In this document: one piece after another, positions 1,746 to 59,290 of the stretch
Layout of the letters: every line of letters starts with the position of its first letter
Numbering within the stretch: position 1 is the stretch's first letter
Source: Segatella oulorum JCM 14966
GTDB lineage: Bacteria; Bacteroidota; Bacteroidia; Bacteroidales; Bacteroidaceae
NCBI RefSeq assembly: GCF_000613785.1
Contig: NZ_BAJQ01000003.1
Coordinates: 62,001-126,000, forward strand
Length of the DNA stretch: 64,000 bases
Direction of reading: 5' to 3'
Program-made: the position numbers and the translations under genes
The notes under the pieces: model-generated
Told to the model about the DNA's origin: nothing
Seen by the model: only the letters and a program-made list of their open reading frames with translations
The model's database searches: none

Positions 1746-4410
1746 TTACGCATTCTTCCCCGTTAATATCTTCTTGATTTCATTGAGCTTATTCAAAGCC
1801 TCGACAGGGGTGAGGTTATTCACATCAAGCTCTAATATTTCATCACGTATTTGCGTCAAGATTGGATCGTCTAATTGAAAGAAACTCAGCTCCATTCCTT
1901 CGCGATGTGCTGCTATTTTGGCCGTGTTTGGCTTGGCAGCAGCACCCACTTCGGCATTATCTTGCTCCAATTCTTTCAACACAGTGTTGGCACGTTTCAC
2001 AATAGAACGGGGCATTCCGGCAATCTCTGCCACATGAATTCCAAAGCTATGTTCACTGCCTCCACGTTGCAGTTTGCGCAAGAATATCACCTTTCCATCC
2101 ACATTTTCACGCTCACATTATAGTTTTTAATGCGCGAAAAATGCTTCTCCATCTCATTCAGTTCATGATAATGCGTGGCAAAAAGCGTGCGGGCGCGTGC
2201 CTTTGGCTGCTCATGAAGATACTCAACAATGGCCCATGCGATGCTAATCCCATCGTAAGTGCTCGTGCCTCTGCCCAATTCATCGAAGAGAACCAAACTC
2301 CTTGGCGACACATTATTCAATATATTGGCCGCCTCAGTCATCTCAACCATGAACGTAGATTCGCCTAATGACAGGTTATCACTGGCGCCAACGCGCGTAA
2401 ATATCTTGTCAACAAGACCTATTTCTGCATGCTCTGCCGGCACAAAACAGCCCACTTGCGCCATCAAAACAATGAGTGCTGTTTGCCTGAGCAACGCCGA
2501 TTTACCGGCCATATTGGGCCCCGTTATCATCATGATTTGTTGCTTATCGCTGTCCAATGTCACATCGTTGGGCACATAAACCTCACCCAATGGCAACTGC
2601 GTTTCTATCACAGGATGGCGTCCTTGCACAATCTTTAATACATTATCGTCATGGATAATGGGGCGAATATAATGGTTTTCGCGCGCTATTTTGGCAAAAC
2701 CCAACAGCACATCTAATTGCGCTAAGAGGTTAGCATCGGCCTGAATACGCGGTATATCATCTTGAACGGCCAGGATAAGTTCGTTAAAGAGCTTGGCTTC
2801 CAACGCTAAAATCTTCTCTTCTGCCCCCAGAATTTTCTCTTCATATTCCTTCAATTCGGGGGTGATATAGCGTTCGGCTTGCGCCAAAGTCTGCTTTCTA
2901 ATCCACGTTTCGGGCACATTTTTCTTGAATGTGTTGCGCACTTCCAAATAGTAACCAAACACATTATTGAAACCAATCTTCAGGCTATTGATGCCCGTTT
3001 GCTCGGCTTCTTTCGCCTGCAATTTCAACAAATAGTCTTTGCTATTGCGACTGATGGCACGCAAATCATCCAACTCTGCGTTAAAACCATCGGCTATAAC
3101 ATCGCCCTTATTCACCAACTGTGGCGGATCATTCTGTATTTCTTTCTCAATTCTATCACGCACATGCTCACACAGATGCAACTGTTTTCCCATGCGCTGA
3201 ATCAGCGCATTGTCGGCCGAAAGACACGCTTCTTGAATGGGTTTCAACGCCGATAGCGCCCATTTCAATTGCACCATTTCGCGCGGAGTGACCCTTCCTA
3301 CAGCTATTTTTGATGCAATTCGCTCCAAGTCTCCCATGCGATGGAGCTGTTCATCAACGGTAGATTGAAAATTAAGATCCTTGAAAAAATAATCCACCAT
3401 ATCCAATCTTTCGTCGATAGGCACCACCTCTTTCAACGGAAACACCAACCAACGACGCAACATGCGCCCCCCCATTGGTGTCACAGTGCGGTCGATAACC
3501 GAGAGCAATGAGCGCCCTTCTTCCTGCATCGGCGCCAATAATTCCAACGAACGAATGGTGAATCGGTCCATCCGCACATATTTATCGGCCTCTAAACGCG
3601 CCAGCGATGTGATGTGATTAATGTGCGTATGTTCCGTCATTTCCAAGTATTGCAGAATGGAACCACTGGCAATAATGCCCTCTTTTAAGTGCTCAACGCC
3701 AAAGCCTTTCAGCGACTTTGTGCCGAAATGTTTCAAGAGTTTCTGTCGCGAATTCTGCTCCGTGAACACCCAATCCTCCATCTCAAACACACAGAGTTTG
3801 GTACCAAAATAACGCTGAAAGTCGGCTCTTCGCTCACGGTTATAGAGCACTTCCTTCGGCGAAAAATTAGCCAACAGCTTCTCAACATAGTCATACGACC
3901 CCTCACCCGTGAGGAATTCGCCCGTCGAAATATCCAAGAAACTCACGCCACAAGCTGCCTTTCCAAACTGAACCGCTGCCAAAAAGTTGTTTTCTTTATT
4001 GTTCAGAATGTTGTCGCTGATGGCAATTCCCGGTGTCACCAATTCGGTAATGCCGCGCTTCACCATCTTGTCGGTTTGCGAAAGTCCTTTCTTTCCTTTA
4101 ATTTCCTCGCGCTTTTTCTTTGGGTCTTCCAACTGATCGCAGATGGCAACCCGCTTACCTGCCCGAATCAATTTCGGCAGATAGGTGTCTAAAGCATGAT
4201 GGGGAAAGCCCGCCATCTCGATAGAATTTTCGGCACTGTTGTTGCGTTTGGTGAGCGTGATGCCCAAAATGCCCGCAGCAACCACGGCATCTTCGCCGTA
4301 TGTCTCATAGAAATCGCCACAACGAAACAACATGAGGGCATCGGGATGTTTTGCCTTCATTGAGAAAAATTGCTTCATCATGGGCGTAAGCCTTTATCTT
4401 GTATTGCCAT
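1746..4410 (-). pseudogene. mutS: DNA mismatch repair protein MutS, frameshifted
   Basis: MutS recognises mismatches and small insertion/deletion loops and starts MutL-dependent repair. The main frame (2087-4381) carries the mismatch-binding [14 protein letters not shown] segment near the N-terminus, connector and lever domains, the Walker A GPNMAGKS and the ABC signature [12 protein letters not shown]. The family C-terminus ([20 protein letters not shown]) continues in another frame from about 2104; one missing A in an A-run repairs it. At the 5' end an upstream ATG at 4410 reads [10 protein letters not shown] and joins MMKQFF if one base is added near 4383. That fits the PMMKQFF start of related MutS proteins; otherwise translation starts at 4381. 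With both bases restored the protein is about 888 residues, normal for the family. Downstream of the transporter gene on the same strand. See the finding on clustered deletions. Confidence 0.93.
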
Positions 4411-4515
4411 ATTGATGTGCTATTGTTTTAAAAAGTGTGCGATATTGCTCTGAAAAATGCACCATATTGCTGTGCAAAGTAGGCCATATTGTTGACTAAA
4501 ATGGCCCACTTTTCT
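4409..4515 (+). repeat. 22-bp-phased degenerate repeat array, locus 1
   Basis: Four to five units between the mutS start and the transporter stop. The core hexamers lie at 4420 (ctattg), 4442, 4464 and 4486 (atattg), then a terminal variant at 4508 (actttt): exact 22-bp steps. Units read AAA-rTG-nrC-c-ATATTG plus six variable bases. The strand given is the one on which this consensus reads forward; the flanking genes are on the other strand. The first unit may overlap the possible upstream mutS start at 4410. Confidence 0.75.
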
Positions 4516-4549
4516 ATACGAGTACTAACTCCTTGTGGGACAAACTCTT

Positions 4550-9133: not shown

Positions 9134-9739
9134 AGACTTTGTACTTTTTTAAAGTTTGTATTTGTTTTTATTCTACTTTCTTTTTCTATTTAAAATACGT
9201 CTATTCATGCAGCAAATCCACTCAAAAAGAGGCAACAATCCCTACTTTGTTACATGCGTTTCAATAGGTTTCAGAAGAACAGCAACTCACATTTTTCCAC
9301 CCTATTTTTTTTTCTCTGCGGAGTGAAAAATGCAGCATCGCCGCTTCATACATTTTGTTTTGCTTTTCAAGAATGTGCTGAATGACTTGCACAAAGATAA
9401 TAGAAAAAATCTAAGAATGTACTCATTAGGACCCAACATTTTTAAGATTTCACAAAATTTTATGGATGAGAGCTCCTAAATCTACCAGTCAATGTGCGTA
9501 TGAAGCGTTTACTCGAATGTATAAAATGCCATTATTCTCAAACACAAGCAAGGCGGAAAAATAGGATATAGATGGCGTATTTTCTTCCATAGAAAAGCAT
9601 AAATGAAAAAAATATTGTAAAAAAAATTGATTAAAAAGTAAGTCACTCAAAAACAATGAAATAGCCATTAAAATCTCAAACATAACCCTTTATACCCGCT
9701 TTTCATTTGCTTCCGGGATTGATTTCTATGAGATGGTGT

Positions 9740-9800
9740 GACAAAGTGGGCCACTTTACGAACAAAACACAGCGACTTTATGCCTTATTTTACAAGTAAA
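9740..9800 (+). repeat. 22-bp-phased degenerate repeat array, locus 2 (short)
   Basis: Two clear units inside the candidate origin region: caaagtgggccACTTTA and aaaacacagcgACTTTA, with core hexamers at 9753 and 9775, exactly 22 bp apart. A third, weaker unit may follow near 9797. The cores are of the ACTTTA type seen as terminal units in loci 1 and 4. Confidence 0.5.
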
Positions 9801-10408
9801 ATAAACGATTATCGCGCCTAAAATATCGCTTTTTTTACACTTTTTATGCGAAAAATATGCCTTCGAAAATGTAACGATTTGATAATGAAAGCATTAGTAA
9901 AACGCATCATACGTAGCGTATTTCCGTTCACTTGCTTTTTCTTTTCAAATACAAGAATCTGGCGAAGACATTTGTAAAATAAAACGATGTGCTATAAAAT
10001 GTTGTTTTCAACGCCACTTCTTTTTATTTTTCTCTATATTTTAAAAAAGAAAAAAGATAAGAATAAGAAGAATGATTGTGGATATGTGGATAAAAAGAGG
10101 GTACTTATTTTATGCTTTGCGTATCCACCTTTCCAAGGTTTTTATCCACTCTCTTTTTGATATCTTCAACTTGATTTTAAATGAGATAGTAGTTTTTTCC
10201 ACAAATTTTTGAAAGATGGGAAAGGCGAATGTGTGCATAAAAATGAAGCAAACAGCAGTGTGGATTTTGAAAGTATAAACGGAGTATTGAGGTGTGGAAA
10301 TCCACTTTTTGTGTGAACGGATAGGCAGGTTGTGGATTGTGTGTTGCTTTTAGCACATGTTATCATGGCCTTTTCCACAGGTTTATCCACACATATTGTG
10401 CATAAATA

Positions 10409-12189: not shown

Positions 12190-12224
12190 CCATCGCAGAA
12201 CGACGCTTAACGACTGTTAGAATG

Positions 12225-12295
12225 TTGTCCCAGGCGGACTCGAACCACCGCTGACAGAACCAAAAACTGTAGTGCTACCATTACACCATAGGACA
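12225..12295 (-). tRNA. tRNA-Gln (anticodon TTG), copy 1
   Basis: A 71-nt cloverleaf. Acceptor stem TGTCCTA/TGGGACA with discriminator A, D-arm GGTGTAATGGTAGCA, anticodon loop TTTTGGT (anticodon TTG), T-arm GGTGG-TTCGAGT-CCGCC. The CCA end is not encoded. The 31-39 closing pair of the anticodon stem is T-T, as in some glutamine tRNAs. Identical to the copy at 13346-13416. Confidence 0.95.
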
Positions 12296-12380: not shown

Positions 12381-13133
12381 TTAGCGTGGCGTGTAAACTG
12401 CACGAATAGTGATGCTGGCTTTCTTTTCTTTGTCGGTGGTATTGAAGGTTCCTCCCCAGCTATAATCTTCACTACTGTCAAGACCTACGATTTGAAAAAC
12501 GCCCATAGACGACGATTGTAACGCGCCAACTTTGGCATTACATCCCTCTGCTATGGTCTCAGCTCGCTTGTAAGCGTCGAGACTTGCGTTGTGGAGTAAT
12601 TCCATTTTGAGGTCGTTTAAACGGGTATAGTAGTAGAGCGGATCGTTGCTACTGAAGTTAATTCCGCGGCTATAAAGTGCAGAAATCTTTTGATAAACGC
12701 GCTCTACGGTGTTTAAATCGTGCGAACTAACGGTAATATTCTGCGTAACGCGGTAGCCATTATCAACTTCTATATAGCGTTCTGACTGCGAATCATAGAA
12801 ACTTTTGGTCAGTTTTTCGATGCTAACGCTATTGGTTGTGATGGCCGAATCGGGGATGTTATTGGCGCTGAGATATTGTTTGATGGCGCGACTTGAGTGA
12901 TTAAACTCTTGATAAGCTTCGCCTCGGCTACTCGCTTCGCCGTTAACTGTGATGTTCCAAACGATAAGATCGCTCGTAATTTGCTTTTCGGCCATGCCCG
13001 TAACCTGTATTTTATTTGTGCCTTTTCTGAAGTATTGGAGACCATTGCTCAGTTGATGACAGCACATAATAGCGGCAATACCTGCTACAATTACAATACA
13101 AACTTTGATGATTTCTTTTTGATCGATTTTCAT
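12381..13133 (-). CDS. SIMPL domain (DUF541) membrane-anchored periplasmic protein
   Basis: A 250-residue protein with a single hydrophobic segment at about residues 8-26 and then a SIMPL/BON-like domain. The IQVTGMAEKQITSDLIVWNI start and the repeated Ser/Asn-rich strands, ending SITIRAVYTPR, fit DUF541. The function of these proteins is poorly known; some relatives are linked to oxidative stress or to outer-membrane structures. It lies between two identical tRNA-Gln genes on the same strand. A TAGTTTTG box at 13175-13182 is a plausible promoter 42 bp upstream. Confidence 0.82.
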   Translation of the reverse strand: MKIDQKEIIKVCIVIVAGIAAIMCCHQLSNGLQYFRKGTNKIQVTGMAEKQITSDLIVWNITVNGEASSRGEAYQEFNHSSRAIKQYLSANNIPDSAITTNSVSIEKLTKSFYDSQSERYIEVDNGYRVTQNITVSSHDLNTVERVYQKISALYSRGINFSSNDPLYYYTRLNDLKMELLHNASLDAYKRAETIAEGCNAKVGALQSSSMGVFQIVGLDSSEDYSWGGTFNTTDKEKKASITIRAVYTPR

Positions 13134-13182: not shown

Positions 13183-13345
13183 AAGAAAATTAAAGAATAA
13201 TAGGATAAGATGGTTTGTATTTTTTATATTATTTAGTGCTCGTTTCACTTTATTATGGGAGATGAAGCGCTATGAAATGGGTAATGAATGATACGAAAAA
13301 TGCCTTGAAAGCATTTCACTTTCAAGGCAAATCTCTAAATGAACG

Positions 13346-13416
13346 TTGTCCCAGGCGGACTCGAACCACCGCTGACAGAACCAAAAACTGTAGTGCTACC
13401 ATTACACCATAGGACA
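13346..13416 (-). tRNA. tRNA-Gln (anticodon TTG), copy 2
   Basis: Same 71-nt sequence as 12225-12295, with anticodon loop TTTTGGT and acceptor stem TGTCCTA/TGGGACA. It has its own promoter, so the two copies are separate transcription units around the SIMPL gene. Confidence 0.95.
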
Positions 13417-17388: not shown

Positions 17389-18645
17389 TTATAGTTTAAA
17401 TACTTTCTTAATTTGGTCTACAAGGTCGAGCTTTTCCCAAGTAAACAATTCCACATCGAGCGTCTTTGTTTCGTGATAACGACTGGTGAAAGTTTTCTTT
17501 ACCACTTTGTTTTCGCGTCCCATGTGGCCGTATGCTGCCGTCTCTACATACATCGGTTGGCGCAATTTCAGGTTGCGTTCGATGGCTTTTGGGGTGAGAT
17601 TGAACATCGATTTAATCTTGTTGGCAATCTCACCATCCGTCATATTGACGTGACTTCTGCCGTAGGTGTTGACATAAACACTCACAGGTTGCGCCTCGCC
17701 AATGGCATAAGCCAGTTGCAAAAGCATCTCATCGGCCACACCAGCTGCTACCATATTCTTGGCAATGTGGCGTGCAGCGTAGGCCGCAGAGCGGTCGACT
17801 TTCGATGGATCTTTACCCGAAAAGGCACCACCACCATGTGCACCTTTGCCGCCATAGGTATCAACAATAATCTTTCTTCCTGTCAAACCCGTGTCGCCAT
17901 GAGGCCCACCAATGACAAATTTTCCTGTCGGATTCACGTGATAGACGATGTCATCGTTGAAGAGTCGCAGCACCTTTTCGCTGAGTTTAGCCTTTGTTCG
18001 TGGAATGAGCGTGTTGATGACATCGGCTTTTATCTGTGCCAACATCGCTTCATCATCCTTTGAAAATTCATCATGTTGGGTGCTAATCACGATGTCGGTG
18101 ATGCGAACGGGTTCGTTGTTGTCGTTGTATTCAATCGTCACCTGACTCTTACTGTCGGGGCGCAGATAGGTCATTTGTCGGCCTTCTTTGCGAATTTCAG
18201 CCAAGGTGCTCATCAAAACATGTGCCAATTCTAATGAAACAGGCATATAGTTGTCTGTCTCATTGGACGCATATCCGAACATCATTCCTTGGTCGCCGGC
18301 ACCTTGTTGCTCGTCTTCTTCACGGCTAACACCACGGTTGATGTCGTCGCTTTGCTCGTGAATGGCGGTGAGAATGCCACACGAATTGCCATCAAACTGA
18401 TATTCGGCCTTTGTATATCCAATCTTTTTGATGGTTTCTCGGGCTATTGTTTGCAGGTCGATGTACTCTTGTGAGCGCACTTCTCCCATGATAATCACTT
18501 GCCCGGTGGTGCAGAAAGTCTCTACCGCGCAATGGGCGTTTGCATCATAAGCCAGGAACTGGTCTAAGATAGCGTCTGAGATTTGGTCAGAAACTTTGTC
18601 GGGATGTCCTTCGGAAACCGACTCGGATGAAAATAAATAACTCAT
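17389..18645 (-). CDS. metK: S-adenosylmethionine synthetase
   Basis: A complete 418-residue methionine adenosyltransferase making SAM from methionine and ATP. The GHPDK ATP-binding motif is at residues 13-17, [10 protein letters not shown] is the substrate loop region, and the phosphate-binding [19 protein letters not shown] is intact. First gene of the metK-DUF4271-hemD-rnpA-yidD-tyrS series. The promoter at 18788-18819 gives a leader of about 135 nt that contains a possible SAM-II-like riboswitch. Confidence 0.98.
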
Positions 18646-18708
18646 TTTTCCATTACTTTTTAAACGTGGAAAAACGCTTGTTAACCGTAAAATCTAAAGG
18701 GGGATTTT

Positions 18709-18759
18709 GCAGTTTTAGCATTTTTTTATGTGGTTGCAAGCAGCCAAATTTTTCCACAA
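18709..18759 (-). promoter_or_regulatory. Possible SAM-II-like riboswitch in the metK leader
   Basis: Read on the minus strand, a TGTGG/CCACA stem encloses a loop with ATTTGG and CTGCTTGCAA, followed by CATAAAAAAATGCTAAAAC. The order AUUU, UUGCA, P1 3' strand, AUAAA, GCUAAAA resembles the SAM-II (SAM_alpha) pseudoknot, and its position in front of metK fits SAM feedback. I could not confirm the second pseudoknot helix by eye, so this remains a proposal. Confidence 0.45.
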
Positions 18760-18787
18760 TAGTTATACAATCTTATTATTATCGCTG

Positions 18788-18899: not shown

Positions 18900-19361
18900 T
18901 AGTTGCATTTTTATTTTGTAAAGATTGTGTACCAAAAAGAGGGCTATCGAAAAAGATTGAAATAGAAAAGGGCATGCTAAAAAACAGTTGTTTTTTGGTG
19001 TTTTGTGTGGGTTTGTTTCGTTATTCCTATTGCATGATGGTGTAAAAGCTATTGTTTTCGAGCAAAAAAGCTATTGTTTTTTGCGGCAAAAAGAATGGAT
19101 TTTGAGGCTTTTTTGCACTAAAAATGTAGGCATATAAACTCATTTTGGCCTATTTTTGAGCAAGAAACTTCTGATAAAAGCAGGCTCGATGCTTAACAAC
19201 TTGATTATAAGAGGTTTATTAAAAGGTTCTGTTTTTGGCGTAAATGCAATGAAAGGTTTTAAAGTTTTAAATGGAGAAGTTATGAAGATGCGTTTGTAAA
19301 AGAATATCATAACGATAAAAATGAGATGCGAAAAAAGGCAAAATAAAAAGCGAAAGAAAGC
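18900..19361 (+). repeat. Divergent intergenic region with 22-bp-phased repeat array, locus 3
   Basis: Gene-free DNA between metK and the CoA-transferase. Two nearly identical units, aaaagctattgtttt, start at 19044 and 19066, exactly 22 bp apart. Less regular units follow at 19088, about 19110 and 19132, with attttg cores at 19099 and 19142. Flanking DNA is A/T-run rich. No gene seen. Confidence 0.6.
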
Positions 19362-28511: not shown

Positions 28512-28645
28512 TGCTTTGTGCACTAAAAGCTATCCTATTATCCATTAAAAGCTATTGTTTTATGAGACAATATGCACCATATTGTTGAGCATTCTCGATG
28601 CAATTACATGACAATGTGTGCTACTTTTGTTTTTACTCAAATAGC
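28512..28645 (+). repeat. 22-bp-phased degenerate repeat array, locus 4
   Basis: Five units between two convergent glycosyltransferase genes. Core hexamers at 28535 (ctatta), 28557 (gtttta), 28579 (atattg), 28601 (caatta) and 28623 (actttt), each exactly 22 bp apart. Every unit begins with an A-tract or AT start such as aaaagctat. The central unit, aatatgcaccATATTG, is closest to consensus. Confidence 0.75.
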
Positions 28646-37385: not shown

Positions 37386-38082
37386 GTTTTTTTTTCTGAA
37401 TTGTTGGTTCACTAAAGCTCATTTTTGGTTGACGGCTGAGGGTTAAATCTTTCTTTTGTTTGTGGGGCAGGTAGCACAATCACTTTCCTTTACAAAAGGC
37501 TTTCTGTAGTTTGTTTATTTCAAATGGCGAGGCGATGGATGACGTATGGGCGAAATAGGGGCGTGTGTTCTAATCGTCTTGTAGTCAACATGATAATAGA
37601 AGGGAATGGTTTTTTCGCTGATTTTGATGGTGGAAAAGTGAGAAAAAGGGGCTATTTTGCCTTGTTTTTTAGGTTGAATTTGTGAGTAAAACGGATGTGT
37701 TTGTGTACAAAAGTGATAGACTTTACTCGTGAAAGACATAGGGTTTAGGAGTAAAGGTAGGTGGATTTGTGCGAAAAGGCGTGTTTTGATGCGTCGGATT
37801 TTCTATTTGGAGGAGTTTTGAGGAGGTGTTTTTTGGTAGGATTTATTTACAATAATGGGGTGTATAGGTGGTGCATTTTTAGGGTGCTGTCTGTCATTTT
37901 GCATTGGTTCTTCTGTGGATTAGGAGGCAGAAATATCATTTTTTGTATTGAGAAGCAATGTGGGGAAATCCTTGTTTTCTGGGTGAATGATAGCCTGTTA
38001 TCGCAAAAGTGTCATTCAAAATGCGCGAAACTACATCGTAAACGATTTTAGTTTAAAAAGTATTAAAGTTTTCAATGCATTC
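37386..38082. other. Long intergenic region; weak A-tract periodicity at 37640-37800
   Basis: About 700 bp with no convincing gene. Between 37644 and 37796 A-tracts recur about every 21-23 bp (37688, 37709, 37732, 37753, 37774, 37796), reminiscent of the 22-bp family but without the TGCACCATATTG core. The rest is G/T-rich on the + strand with no recognised signal. Confidence 0.4.
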
Positions 38083-43634: not shown

Positions 43635-43689
43635 ATCATCAATATTTTTTTATGAGGGTCTTTGCATCAATGATTGCTTAAAGCGGTTG

Positions 43690-43810
43690 AAGCAGAATGG
43701 CAAATGGCGCGGAAAGGATTTGCAAAAGATAGCATTTTGGGCTGTAATAGCGTGCATATTGCGTGTGAAACTGCACCATTTTGCGCGACAATCTGCATGC
43801 TTTTATTTTC
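43690..43810 (+). repeat. 22-bp-phased degenerate repeat array, locus 5 (inside the PUL)
   Basis: Lies between the susD-like stop and the susE-like start. Core hexamers at 43734 (attttg), 43756 (atattg), 43778 (attttg) and 43800 (ctttta): exact 22-bp steps, with a weaker unit at 43712. The last unit, aatctgcatgctttta, is identical over 16 bp to the last unit of locus 8. Confidence 0.75.
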
Positions 43811-43929
43811 CAATCTTTATTGCATTGCTGCTCAACGGCTTAGGAAAGGGTTGCTTGTACCCTCTCCTTTGCGGTTGATTTTCTTCTGAACTATTGTTGC
43901 ATAAGACCTTTTGTGCTGTTGAATTAATT

Positions 43930-51773: not shown

Positions 51774-51904
51774 GGCGTGAGACGGTGCGTTACGGCGTGG
51801 TTTGCCTGCTTGATGGTTGCAAAGGCATCGCGTTTTTCGCACCATAGGATATGGATTGGCGCCCCCTATCTTTTCTGTTATCTTATCGCATGGCCTGTAT
51901 CTTC

Positions 51905-51995
51905 AAATAAAATGATAGAGATTACTGCGTAAAAAGGTGCATATTGTCAAGCAAAATGCATAGATTACAAGGTAATCTATGCCATTTTATTTGTA
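51905..51995 (+). repeat. 22-bp-phased degenerate repeat array, locus 6
   Basis: Lies in the convergent gap 51774-52213. Core hexamers at 51919 (agatta), 51941 (atattg), 51962 (agatta) and 51984 (attttat), steps of 22, 21 and 22 bp. The third and fourth units form the hairpin at 51953-51988. Nothing else was seen in the rest of this 440-bp gap. Confidence 0.65.
51953..51988. terminator. Hairpin formed by two repeat units
   Basis: Arms AAAATG-CATAGATTAC and GTAATCTATG-c-CATTTT: 16 bp with one bulged C and a 3-nt loop. It lies between convergent genes, so it may serve as a shared terminator. Confidence 0.55.
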
Positions 51996-52213
51996 TTTGT
52001 AGCCGACTTATTGTGGCCATCACATCGTAGTCGTGCGAAGATAACTTATCCTCTTCTGCGGCATCGCACAGCCATAAGCCCTTTTATGATGGTGAGCCGT
52101 GGTGTAATGGATGCGCTTTTGGCTGTTGGGTGCCTGTGAAATCGGGTGGGAGAGGGTGCTTAGAAATAAGCATGCTGCCAGCTTTCGGGCGCCCTCTCTT
52201 GGCCTATTGCACC

Positions 52214-54975
52214 TTAGTGTGCTTCCAACCAGTTGGCACCCCAGCCCGCATCGGCCAGCAAGGGCACACTGAGGGGGTAGGCATTTTGCATTTCTTCGAG
52301 CACAATGCGTTCCACTTTCTCTTTCTCTTCGGGCAACACCGAGAAGTTAAGTTCATCGTGTACCTGGAGAATCATCTTCGAACGGATGCCTTCTTGCTTA
52401 AATCTTTCCGCAATATGAATCATCGCTATCTTGATGATGTCGGCTTCAGAGCCTGGATAGGGGCATTGATGGCGTTGCGTTCGGCAAAACCTCGCACGGT
52501 GTTGTTGCGCGAATTGATGTCGGGAAGATAGCGTTTCCGGCCGAATAGTGTCACGGCATAACCTGTCTTTTTGGCCTCAGCAATGGCTTGATCCATGTAG
52601 GCTTTCACTTTGGGATAGGTGGAAAAATAGCCCTCAATGAGCTGTTTTGCCTCCTTGTTGTCAATGCCCATGCGTTGTGAAAGCCCAAAGGTTGTGATGC
52701 CATAGATAATGCCAAAATTGGCTTGTTTGGCCTTTTTTCGCTCTAAGGGGGTTACCTCTTCAACGGGTTTGTGGGCTATTTTTGCTGCTGTAGCCGCATG
52801 AATATCTATGCCTTCTCTGAACGATTCTTGCATGTTTTCGTCGCCACTGAGGTGCGCCATGATGCGAAGTTCGATTTGAGAATAGTCAGCTGAAAAGAAT
52901 AAACAGCCGGGTTCGGGGATGAAACATTTGCGAATTTCTTTGCCATCTTCGCTCCTTACGGGGATATTTTGCAGGTTAGGGTCGCTCGAAGAGAGGCGCC
53001 CTGTGGCCGTAAGTGCCTGATTAAAAGAGGTATGGATGTGGCCTGTGCGTGGATTAATGAGCTTCGGTAGCGCATCAATATAGGTGCTTAGCAGTTTCTT
53101 TAAGCCGCGATAGTCCAAGATAAGCGCCACGATGGGGTTCTTGCTGCTGAGCGATTGCAACACTTCTTCATTGGTAACATACTGGCCTGTCTTTGTCTTT
53201 TTGGGCTTTTCCATGATGTTGAGCTTACCAAAGAGGATGTCACCTACTTGTTTTGGACTTGAAATGTTGAATGATTCGCCTGCTATTTCATAGATTTCCC
53301 GCTCAATTTGCTGCATTCTCTCGGTGTAAGCGACCGATGTTTCGCGCAGTGCTTCGGTGTCAAGGCGCACACCTGTGCGTTCCATCTCGGCTAAAACGGG
53401 TACTAAAGGCATCTCGATATTCCAGAAAAGCGACTCGGTTCCGGTGGCTTTGAGCTGTGGTTCGAGCACGTTTTTCAGTTGAAGTGTGATGTCAGCATCT
53501 TCACATGCATATTCAAACACGTCCTTGGGGGCGAGCATCCGCATGGACTTTTGTCCCTTTCCCGGCGCACCTATCAGCTCATCGATGTGGATTGTCTTAT
53601 AGTTTAAGAGTGTTTCGGCCATGTAATCCATGTTATGACGCAATTCGGGTTGCACCACATAGTGGGCCAACATCGTGTCAAACATTCTGCCTTTTAGTGT
53701 GATGTCGTAATTTTGTAGCACCTCATAGTCATACTTTATGTTCTGACCAATTTTAAGAATCGCAGGGTCTTCGTAGAGAGGTTTAAAGATATTAACATAT
53801 TGTAAGGCCTCTTTACGATCGGAAGGAATGGCTACATAGTAGGCTTCATGTTCGGCATTGGAAAACGATAAACCTACTAATTCGGCATCAATAGCATGGG
53901 TTGAGGTCGTTTCTGTGTCTAAACTAATGAATGATTTTGTCCTAAGAAAATCACAAAGTTGTTGTGCTTCTTCCTGACTTTCAATAAGTTTATAATCATG
54001 TTTTATGGTTTTTATGCTTTCAAAATGCGATTTTTCAACGCTTTCTGACGGATTACTCGGAATACTTGCGAATAAATCGGGTTGCAAAGTGCTGTTTTTA
54101 GCTTTTTCAGCGCCGCCATTTAAAATTTTATTCGCTAAGGTCTTAAATTCTAATTCGGCAAAAATTTCGCGCAGTTTTGCTTCATCCGGTTTTTGAATTT
54201 CCAAAACATCGAGTTGTAGTTCGATGGGCACATCGGTTTTAATCGTTGCCAGAAATTTCGACATTTTAATATCTTCGGTGGCAGCTTCTACATTCAATCG
54301 CATCTTACCTTTTAGTTGAGTTGTGTTTGAAAGCAGACCTTCAACCGATCCAAACGCATTGATAAGTTTCACTGCTGTCTTCTCTCCAACGCCGGGACAA
54401 CCAGGAAAATTGTCGACAGCATCGCCCATAAGTGCCAGCAAGTCGATGACTTGTTCGGGACGTTCGACACCATATTTTGCCTGAATTTGTTGTGGACCGA
54501 TGATGTCATAACCGCCACCATAGCGCGGTTTATACATGAAAACGTTGTCTTTTACCAACTGTCCGTAGTCCTTATCGGGCGTAAGCATGTAGGTTTCCAC
54601 GCCTTCCTGACCGGCTTTTGTAGCCAATGTGCCAATGACATCATCGGCTTCAAACCCCTCTTTTTGCAGGATAGGAATGTGAAATGCGTGCAGAATTTCC
54701 TGAATGATGGGCACACTTTGTCGGATAGCTTCGGGCGTTTCTTCACGTTGTGCCTTGTAGGGTGGGTAGGCTTCATGGCGGAAAGTCTTGCCCAAATCGA
54801 ATGCCACGCCAAGGTGAGTGGGTTGCTCTTTGGTGATAATCTCGTGCAGGGTGTTGACAAATCCTAATATGGCCGAAGTGTTAAGTCCCTTAGAATTGAT
54901 GCGCGGTGCACGGATAAGTGCATAATATGACCTGAAAATCAGGGCATAGGCATCGATTAAAAATAATTTATTCAT
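52214..54975 (-). pseudogene. polA: DNA polymerase I, frameshifted near the 3' end
   Basis: Repair and Okazaki-fragment-processing polymerase. Start MNKLFLIDAYALIFRSYYAL at 54975. The 5'-3' exonuclease domain (to about residue 290) is followed by a 3'-5' exonuclease domain with SLDTETTSTHAIDAELVG, and the polymerase domain with motif A DYSQIELRI, KQANFGIIYGI and, after the break, motif C LQVHDELNF. The frame shifts near 52453, where NAINAPIQG should continue SEADIIKIAM; one missing G repairs it and gives about 920 residues, the family length. Loss of motif C would kill polymerase activity if real. An upstream ATG at 55068 adds 31 residues and is rejected. Confidence 0.95.
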
Positions 54976-56114: not shown

Positions 56115-56262
56115 CGTTCAGCACATATTGCTTGGTAATATGTGCTGAATTAGTTTATAAAGTGCACCAAATTAGAGAGTAATTTGCATCATATTAGTGT
56201 GTAAAGTGATGCATATTGGGGCACAACTCGTACCGAATTAATTTCCAAATACCTAATTTTTT
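56115..56262 (+). repeat. 22-bp-phased degenerate repeat array, locus 7 (most regular)
   Basis: Core hexamers at 56125 (atattg), 56147 (gaatta), 56169 (aaatta), 56191 (atatta), 56213 (atattg) and 56235 (gaatta): six units with no departure from a 22-bp step, and a weaker seventh near 56257. Units are preceded by gtgcacc, ttgcatc or tgatgc. The array fills the convergent gap between the prenyl synthase and WG-repeat genes. Confidence 0.8.
56117..56149. terminator. Perfect hairpin at the start of repeat locus 7
   Basis: 13-bp arms TTCAGCACATATT/AATATGTGCTGAA with a 7-nt loop (GCTTGGT), about 60 bp after the prenyl synthase stop. No U-tract follows. It is formed by two successive repeat units. 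Confidence 0.6.
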
Positions 56263-59189: not shown

Positions 59190-59290
59190 TACAAAAGTGG
59201 GCTATATTGTAATGTAAAATGCACTATATTGTGCACGAAAGTGTGCTATATTGTTGACTAATCTGCATGCTTTTAAATTGCATTATGGGG
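59190..59290 (+). repeat. 22-bp-phased degenerate repeat array, locus 8 (inside an operon)
   Basis: Core atattg at 59204, 59226 and 59248 and terminal ctttta at 59270: exact 22-bp steps. The first three units are close to consensus (gtgggctATATTG, tgcactATATTG, gtgtgctATATTG). It separates dtd from the small membrane ORF although both lie on the same strand. Confidence 0.78.

Follow-up and report, generated by a model that had tools for sequence, protein, structure and literature searches.

Among the described systems closest to the repeats analyzed here, PINSR is a 188 bp intergenic repeat of the Prevotella intermedia/nigrescens group, published in 2015 without an assigned function (PMC4755523). 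According to that account, two P. intermedia strains have 177 and 184 copies; the repeat is described as non-coding and as lacking terminal inverted repeats, and it is carried by P. intermedia, P. nigrescens, P. falsenii and P. disiens. About three quarters of the PINSR regions are reported as conserved between both P. intermedia strains, and the repeat is said to be mostly missing from strain-specific DNA, for example conjugative and mobilizable transposons. The BrickBuilt MITE, reported from Porphyromonas gingivalis and P. gulae, contains intergenic tandem 23-nt repeats (Klein et al. 2015, PMC4596501). REP sequences of the CGTC type are reported from the Bacteroidetes (PMC3733652), and an A/T periodicity of about 11 bp is described as general in bacterial genomes and as concentrated in intergenic DNA in E. 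coli.

The window (the whole 64,000-nucleotide stretch of Segatella oulorum JCM 14966 DNA that was analyzed) carries intergenic arrays of degenerate units in 22 bp phase. A preliminary description had listed eight intergenic loci with a 22 bp recurrence, all of which hold units in this register, and a ninth genuine array with five units, absent from that list, lies at 37644-37753 on the plus strand (LLR 15.0, for the scored region 37413-37760). The array at 4410-4519 (plus strand; region LLR 29.3) has five units, beginning at 4410, 4432, 4454, 4476 and 4498, with mutS on one side and a YidE/YbjL-type transporter gene on the other; it is one of three loci at which Tandem Repeats Finder reports a period of 22. 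An array was also expected at 9740-9800 and is present at 9714-9779, but it is weaker and short, with three units on the minus strand (region LLR 16.1), in a large intergenic region adjoining the probable replication origin. Three units at 19044-19109 (plus strand; region LLR 24.1) include two that are AAAAGCTATTGTTTT, five units at 28525-28634 (plus strand; region LLR 23.9) lie between convergent genes, seven units at 43680-43833 (plus strand; region LLR 31.8) are flanked by two minus-strand genes, and four units, at 59194, 59216, 59238 and 59260, make up the array at 59194-59281 (plus strand; region LLR 20.7).

Downstream of polA, four units occupy 51909-51995 on the plus strand (LLR 25.3, for a scored region, 51774-52425, that also takes in the polA coding tail). 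The last two units are inverted copies of each other (51953-51987), and the third, at 51953, is 21 bp long, so that the 22 bp phase described earlier as rigid is strict though imperfect. The segment at 52190-52425 encodes the C-terminal part of PolA in a different frame from the 880-residue ORF, and polA appears to be frame-shifted in this assembly. The array from which the preliminary description took its headline lies at 56115-56246 (plus strand; region LLR 23.2), with units at 56137, 56159, 56181, 56203 and 56225 and a perfect 13 bp inverted repeat (56117-56129/56137-56149). It is placed at the 3' end of a polyprenyl-diphosphate-synthase-like gene, here called ispB-like, a label resting on family matches that fall below curated cut-offs.

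Several other features of the window are noted. Eight DnaA-box-like 9-mers are clustered at 10077-10405 (19 are present in the window with at most one mismatch), and the cluster and an AT-rich region at 9134-10165 lie near the point where the cumulative GC skew of the contig is lowest; this is the probable replication origin. An Rfam scan of the whole window at the gathering threshold gave no match inside the arrays and reported only a SAM-II riboswitch and two tRNAs. The riboswitch, at 18705-18763 on the minus strand (64.7 bits), adjoins the gene at 17389-18645, and the two tRNA-Gln (TTG) genes, at 12224-12295 and 13345-13416, have equal Rfam scores and lie about 1.1 kb apart around the gene at 12381-13133.

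The period was examined in a 380 kb sample of the source genome, a 2.83 Mb draft, made up of the window and 316 kb more and providing 175 intergenic regions (47.5 kb). These regions come from a simple ORF caller and some include coding DNA, such as the frame-shifted polA end at 52190-52425. The intergenic autocorrelation that the preliminary description proposed as a check places lag 22 highest among lags 5-119 (z 9.0, nominal, as all lag z-values here treat positions as independent), and coding DNA of the same sample has no elevation at this lag; the refutation test set by that description thus leaves its claim standing. The next intergenic lags are 12 (8.3) and 21 (6.5), then 66, 99 and 42, which are multiples of three, so that part of their signal is probably coding DNA missed by the ORF caller; other multiples of 11 are also raised. 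With a cyclic hidden Markov model fitted by EM from random starts, the log-likelihood improves by 599 for period 22 vs 186-329 for the remaining periods in the range 16-32, with harmonic gains of 430 (period 11), 466 (33) and 664 (44). The region scores quoted above, 16-32 for the eight listed loci and 15 for 37413-37760, are in-sample values of a skew-neutral cyclic model trained on the same 175 regions; 23 of the 175 score above 6 with the real model and none does with ten column-permuted versions. The consensus AAARTGCACCATATTG, allowing three mismatches, has 16 matches in the window vs 2.27 expected, although about half lie outside arrays and are presumably chance.

Array density is not uniform in this sample, with arrays in 15 of 61 regions on contig C136 vs 8 of 114 on the other sampled contigs (p 0.002). 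C136 is the probable origin-bearing contig. In the complete genome G016, of the same genus, no enrichment near the origin is evident by eye, and the 40 places of its element look scattered along the chromosome. A replication-strand polarity was considered and rejected: the raw model gave nearly all strong arrays of the window one direction, with directions switching near the GC-skew minimum, and the skew-neutral model gave mixed orientations.

The unit is more than a hexamer in phase, as it was first described; it is a dyad, a quasi-palindrome of about 15 bp followed by a 7 bp spacer. In register, the source-genome unit reads approximately AAW-N9-WTT-G and then six or seven spacer bases. The dyad is centered on position 8, where arm complementarity is 0.438 in the source genome and 0.523 in its relatives, vs at most 0.372 at the other centers tested. 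Matching arm bases occur together beyond what column composition predicts, clearly so in relatives (z up to 6.6), and in the source genome with z 5.0 at the outermost pair and 1.6-2.5 at the next four, with no covariation at the two innermost pairs. G016 shows no unit-to-unit covariation of the arms; there the dyad sits in the column consensus. Among 69 arrays of relatives found de novo without using symmetry, 33 have a dyad clearly above column-permuted controls, vs only 4 of 20 arrays from other genera. Neighboring units are inverted in some arrays, for example at 51953-51987 and 56117-56149, and by eye the spacers also tend to symmetry (TTGC-NNN-GYAA).

A-tracts are present in 82 of 127 units in the source genome, and the preliminary description saw in them a means of bending DNA. 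As a common principle this is not supported, since many species keep the 22 bp lattice with other palindromes, e.g. TTCCCANNTGGGAA, units resembling which occur in loci L068, L078, L084 and L086. In the 69 arrays of relatives, at least three of four units have A-tracts in 33 arrays and at most one of four in 28, and array GC content spans 0.07 to 0.68 at an unchanged period.

The lattice is widespread in the Prevotellaceae. In 80 loci collected as matches of a PolA scan, with 672 intergenic regions, the pooled intergenic signal at lag 22 has a nominal z of 30.8, and the profile trained on the source genome, the search for which in relatives had been proposed at the outset, is passed by 46 of the 672 regions vs 0-5 in ten column-permuted controls. 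Without any model, a clear 22 bp array is present in 69 of the 672 regions, vs 0-4 for each of 11 control lags; counted by winning lag, 69 arrays are at 22 and 14 at all other lags from 13 to 40 together. By locus, lag 22 ranks first among 28 lags in 46 loci, second in 8, and third or lower in 26. The palindrome differs by clade in the Prevotella arrays and the spacing is kept, with units such as AAAAGGTGCCCTTTTGCATGGT in P. histicola, AAAACCGTAGGTTTTGCACGGT in P. falsenii and AAAATAAATTATTTT in L054. In G016, from which 19 stretches of 20 kb were sampled for period and context, the units follow a different palindromic consensus, AATTTGANTCAAATTRC, which with up to two mismatches is found 81 times forward and 88 times in reverse, many sites of this near-palindromic pattern being counted on both strands. 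The reversed pattern is found 0 and 1 times, and the places listed span the chromosome. In smaller samples of four further Prevotella genomes lag 22 is at the top in three (z 3.9, 4.5 and 4.0) and third in the other (G045, z 3.0).

A wider sample took in 40 of 103 matching genomes, five of genus g1 and 35 of other genera. In the 35 loci from other genera of the same GTDB family, the winning periods are 21 bp (4), 22 bp (12), 23 bp (4) and others from 13 to 40 (2), and in the pooled data lag 21 is stronger than lag 22 (nominal z 6.7 vs 5.6), an excess that may be partly coding DNA, 21 being a multiple of three. Periods of 21 to 23 bp are all near two helical turns. A comparison with 20 other families, with one stretch each (eight shorter than 20 kb and one of 387 bases), gave four winners, at 22 (1), 23 (2) and 31 (1). 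We also note near-perfect 23 bp tandem repeats in other Bacteroidales at L237:14580-15391 and L118:9600-9842 (lag-23 identity 1.00 and 0.94), which are possibly relatives of the BrickBuilt type.

Prevotella sp. HJM029 is a sister species of the source strain (PolA is 96% identical) and is collinear with window positions 42449-64000 at 91-94% identity, so that array columns can be compared with their surroundings, in a test that covers four arrays. Only 12 of 422 array columns differ, with one gap column, vs 51 of 842 in the remainder of the array-bearing intergenic regions and 242 of 1136 in the other ones; all non-array intergenic columns together have 293 differences in 1978 and 69 gap columns. 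The arrays thus differ from all remaining intergenic DNA with a Fisher p of about 3e-14, and from the flanks in their own regions alone with p 0.013. For reference, 1045 of 6156 third codon positions and 204 of 6154 first positions differ; the PolA coding segment at 52190-52425 is excluded from the array and intergenic counts and included in the codon classes and model scores. A single column of 154 (43681-43834) differs in the array at 43680-43833, and in the array at 56115-56246 the four differences in 102 columns are all adjacent in one spacer (56175-56178). At the 21 bp unit at 51953, HJM029 has one extra base.

Units within an array are scarcely more alike than units from different arrays. 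Core identity in the source genome is 0.443 for adjacent units, 0.349 for units four apart and 0.387 between arrays, a between-array similarity partly imposed by the detecting model, which favors consensus-like units. Recent local duplication therefore does not explain these arrays, and the earlier suggestion of selection on spacing rather than duplication is borne out by these values and by the single gap column beside 422 aligned ones. Core identity in G016 falls from 0.518 for adjacent units to 0.432, with 0.457 between arrays, and the de novo arrays of relatives, which were selected on lag 22, have unit identities of 0.70, 0.62 and 0.56 at separations of one to three. Arrays are more similar within a genome (0.419, 28 pairs) than between genomes (0.351, 2318 pairs; p 4e-8).

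With respect to genes, arrays in the 80 pooled loci are present in 28 of 148 regions between convergent genes, 36 of 311 between tandem genes and 4 of 177 between divergent genes (divergent vs convergent plus tandem, p 3e-6), and in tandem regions the median array lies 112 bp past the upstream stop codon. In P. nigrescens, sampled as 4 of about 11 possible 50 kb stretches and with its CRISPR array masked for EM (which it otherwise captures), seven arrays fall in 4 of 16 convergent, 3 of 41 tandem and 0 of 16 divergent regions, and none in the 19 regions of a mobile-element-rich stretch. Other genera have arrays in 8 of 53 convergent, 8 of 131 tandem and 3 of 53 divergent regions. However, the counts differ in G016 (3/33, 16/73 and 6/32, respectively) and in the source genome (8/34, 14/88 and 5/39), and the gene-end preference is thus a pooled tendency and not a rule. 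Conservation of position was considered for single orthologous gene ends and rejected; among regions of at least 88 bp, arrays are present at 12 of 42 ispB-like ends and 13 of 48 polA ends, a rate little above that of gene ends in general.

A plausible scenario, to which we assign a probability of roughly 0.45 on the basis of these sequence patterns, is that the arrays are docking rows for a putative symmetric dimeric DNA-binding protein that would bind cooperatively and play an architectural role. In this reading a single protein would bind each palindrome as a symmetric dimer, and successive dimers would lie on the same face of the helix, touching one another and assembling into a short filament with about three to seven members. 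The sequence preference of the protein would drift between clades with the sites following, and protein-protein contact would hold the spacing fixed. Of the candidates first proposed, a protein-binding lattice is the one that survives best, and it is the most economical reading in that it would explain why the units are dyads at a fixed spacing, why their sequence is free to vary, why each clade has its own palindrome and why array columns are constrained. A lattice calls for dyad-symmetric sites spaced by whole helical turns, and such sites are observed, with dyads above control in 33 of 69 arrays. The most likely role would be architectural, as a chromosome-domain, supercoil or insulator element between transcription units and not as an operator of single genes, because the arrays adjoin unrelated genes and, across the pooled species, are mostly at gene ends and not at divergent promoters. 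We infer the existence of the protein, the cooperativity of its binding and its architectural role. Counting against this reading are the non-universal gene-end bias, the partial nature of the dyads, the evidence of copying in G016, the reach of a constraint test of four arrays, the lack of arm covariation in G016 and at the innermost pairs in the source genome, and the low rank of lag 22 in 26 of the 80 loci and in G045.

The alternative that survives best, though we consider it unlikely, is that these are REP/BIME-like sequences, palindromic repeats spread clade by clade by a transposase or other copying and kept where they are least harmful, after genes, with the 22 bp head-to-tail order reflecting the fold of the copying enzyme or of its substrate. 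Clade-specific families at high copy number are consistent with such an origin, as are the copy numbers published for PINSR in two strains (PMC4755523), the occurrence of REPs in Bacteroidetes (PMC3733652) and the pooled gene-end bias, which REPs are reported to share (PMC3733652, PMC2817692). Copying is clearest in G016, where one array and its flanks used as a DNA query gave at least 47 matches at at least 40 places; 40 of 181 first-look candidates were scored, and a consensus was built from 22 of 30 loci. A leader, array and tail are common to these elements (L141, L143, L145 and L147-L176) over about 370-400 bp and are 66-86% identical in the longer matches. The leader matched in 3 of 90 genomes, one being G016 itself and the other two having matches of about 30 bases. 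In the source genome, comparison of all array regions with each other gave matches of 80 bp at 79% identity (4382 vs 59032), 84 bp at 70% and 60 bp at 73%, with a few short matches also to other intergenic regions, and most arrays have no common flanks. The shared flanks in G016 and the short matches in the source genome argue that some arrays spread through the copying of a larger element, and PINSR presumably did likewise.

Several observations do not fit a REP-like origin. Four arrays are kept in place and in sequence between sister species, and unlike families of units hold the same period. Y1 transposase genes are present in three of the four genomes tested, in accord with copying of this kind, but no clear 22 bp array lies within about 1.5 kb of these putative RAYTs at the four of six Y1_Tnp loci examined (L191 is marginal, 0.55 vs 0.44), and G024, with no Y1 match, still has lag 22 at the top, albeit weakly (z 3.9). 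The REP tags GTAG and CGTC are not enriched in the spacers, with 4 and 10 occurrences in 308 units vs 11.9 and 9.8 in shuffled spacers. A REP-like origin is nonetheless compatible with later adoption as protein sites, and the two leading explanations are not exclusive. We also note that the source genome has a further dispersed repeat, distinct from the arrays, 110-190 bp long and 79-97% identical, which occupies four intergenic regions, one of them beside an array (L021:15864-16200, approximately; L021:18002-18266; L011:4629-4998; L027:2590-2788).

It is improbable that the arrays act as RNA, as rows of hairpins transcribed at mRNA 3' ends that stabilize the message, end transcription or bind an RNA-binding protein. 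The gene-end bias of the pooled loci would suit this role, and arrays of relatives do fold better than shuffled sequences (mean z -3.3; 40 of 69 below -2), but they fold equally on both strands (-3.32 and -3.29), which is expected of any palindrome, and 17 arrays of the source genome fold weakly on either strand (mean z about -1.0). Terminator-like hairpins are about equally frequent at gene ends with arrays (24 of 90) and without (54 of 269; p 0.19). Wobble pairs, too, fail to support the phased RNA element entertained in the preliminary description. Although GT mismatches outnumber AC mismatches 30 to 15 between the arms of 18 tandem arrays with a strong dyad, in a count without composition control, no GT excess appears once composition is controlled: there are 50 vs 58.3 expected in the source genome, 78 vs 78.5 in G016, and 49 vs 78.6 in arrays of relatives preselected for their dyad; AC mismatches follow the same pattern. 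In 53 tandem arrays, among which those of relatives were likewise preselected for a dyad, both GT (177 vs 232.7) and AC (147 vs 198.7) mismatches fall below shuffled expectation, and there is thus no sign that RNA pairing maintains the symmetry.

Neutral minisatellites or a generic helical-phase bias, with A/T tracts phased by supercoiling and no dedicated reader, are the least probable explanation and already disfavored, for although the 11 bp A/T periodicity is described as general in bacteria, period 11 also gains likelihood in the source genome, and adjacent units in relatives (in arrays selected on lag 22) are alike as after slippage, the gain at period 22 exceeds that at 11 and at all non-multiples tested, winning lags are concentrated at 22 across the 80 loci, the period is the same whatever the GC content of the array, and the array columns are constrained relative to HJM029.

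Returning to the dimer-binding reading, a broader and more speculative version, which we hold only tentatively, is that Prevotella and its relatives have a previously unrecognized chromatin-type system, in which a fast-evolving putative dimer occupies intergenic arrays, protein and sites are rewritten together in each clade, and contact between protein molecules keeps the geometry at two turns (21, 22 or 23 bp, depending on the genus). By extrapolation from the 23 and 27 arrays in about 380 kb each of the source genome and G016, a genome would hold more than 100 intergenic arrays. If the chromatin-type reading is true, PINSR and possibly the 23 bp minisatellite of P. gingivalis would be glimpses of this system. 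The lattice could bring under a single explanation intergenic repeats, each specific to a lineage, that were described piecemeal in major gut, rumen and oral bacteria. Dyads spaced by two turns of the helix provide a searchable signature for the putative DNA-binding protein and, if the arrays are indeed protein sites, they would represent a bacterial case of genome-wide co-evolution of a protein with its dispersed sites that is testable in culturable Prevotella.

The arrays resemble the extragenic palindromes of REP/BIME type in being dispersed, in falling into species-specific families and, in the pooled loci and P. nigrescens though not in G016, in lying mostly after genes (PMC3733652, PMC2817692), but REP/BIME palindromes are described as 20-40 bp long and of high copy number whereas the quasi-palindromes here are shorter, at about 15 bp; the arrays also differ in their strict 22 bp head-to-tail lattice, in having no RAYT link at four loci, and in showing none of the GT-pair excess reported for REPs (PMC3733652). 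The 11 bp A/T periodicity is likewise helically phased and intergenic, but as described it is diffuse, unlike the discrete dyad sites here with their 22 bp period, which include GC-rich arrays. BrickBuilt comes from a Bacteroidales relative and has a leader and a tail like the G016 element, but it is published with IS5-type terminal inverted repeats and up to 22.8 repeats, and, in a comparison by description only, the available portion of its account gives no dyad (PMC4596501). Dispersed intergenic palindromic repeats are thus already a known kind, and in the open-licence literature searched we found no prior description of a family-wide two-turn lattice with changing palindromes. The preliminary description knew of no named family like this one, which holds for the family-wide lattice but very probably not for one of its local forms. 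PINSR shares with the 22 bp arrays an intergenic, dispersed and non-coding character and the Prevotella lineage; 22 bp arrays are present in P. falsenii and P. nigrescens, both reported carriers, and a search with the P. falsenii array region gives nine matching places on chromosome II of P. nigrescens. It was published as a 188 bp clade-specific unit, in a text that has no mention of 22-bp and refers to palindromes solely for CRISPR (PMC4755523), whereas the lattice here is family-wide and built from many unlike units, so that PINSR would be at most one clade's version. On the strength of its published description rather than its consensus sequence, we infer that PINSR is very probably just that, one clade's version of a 22 bp lattice that extends across the Prevotellaceae.
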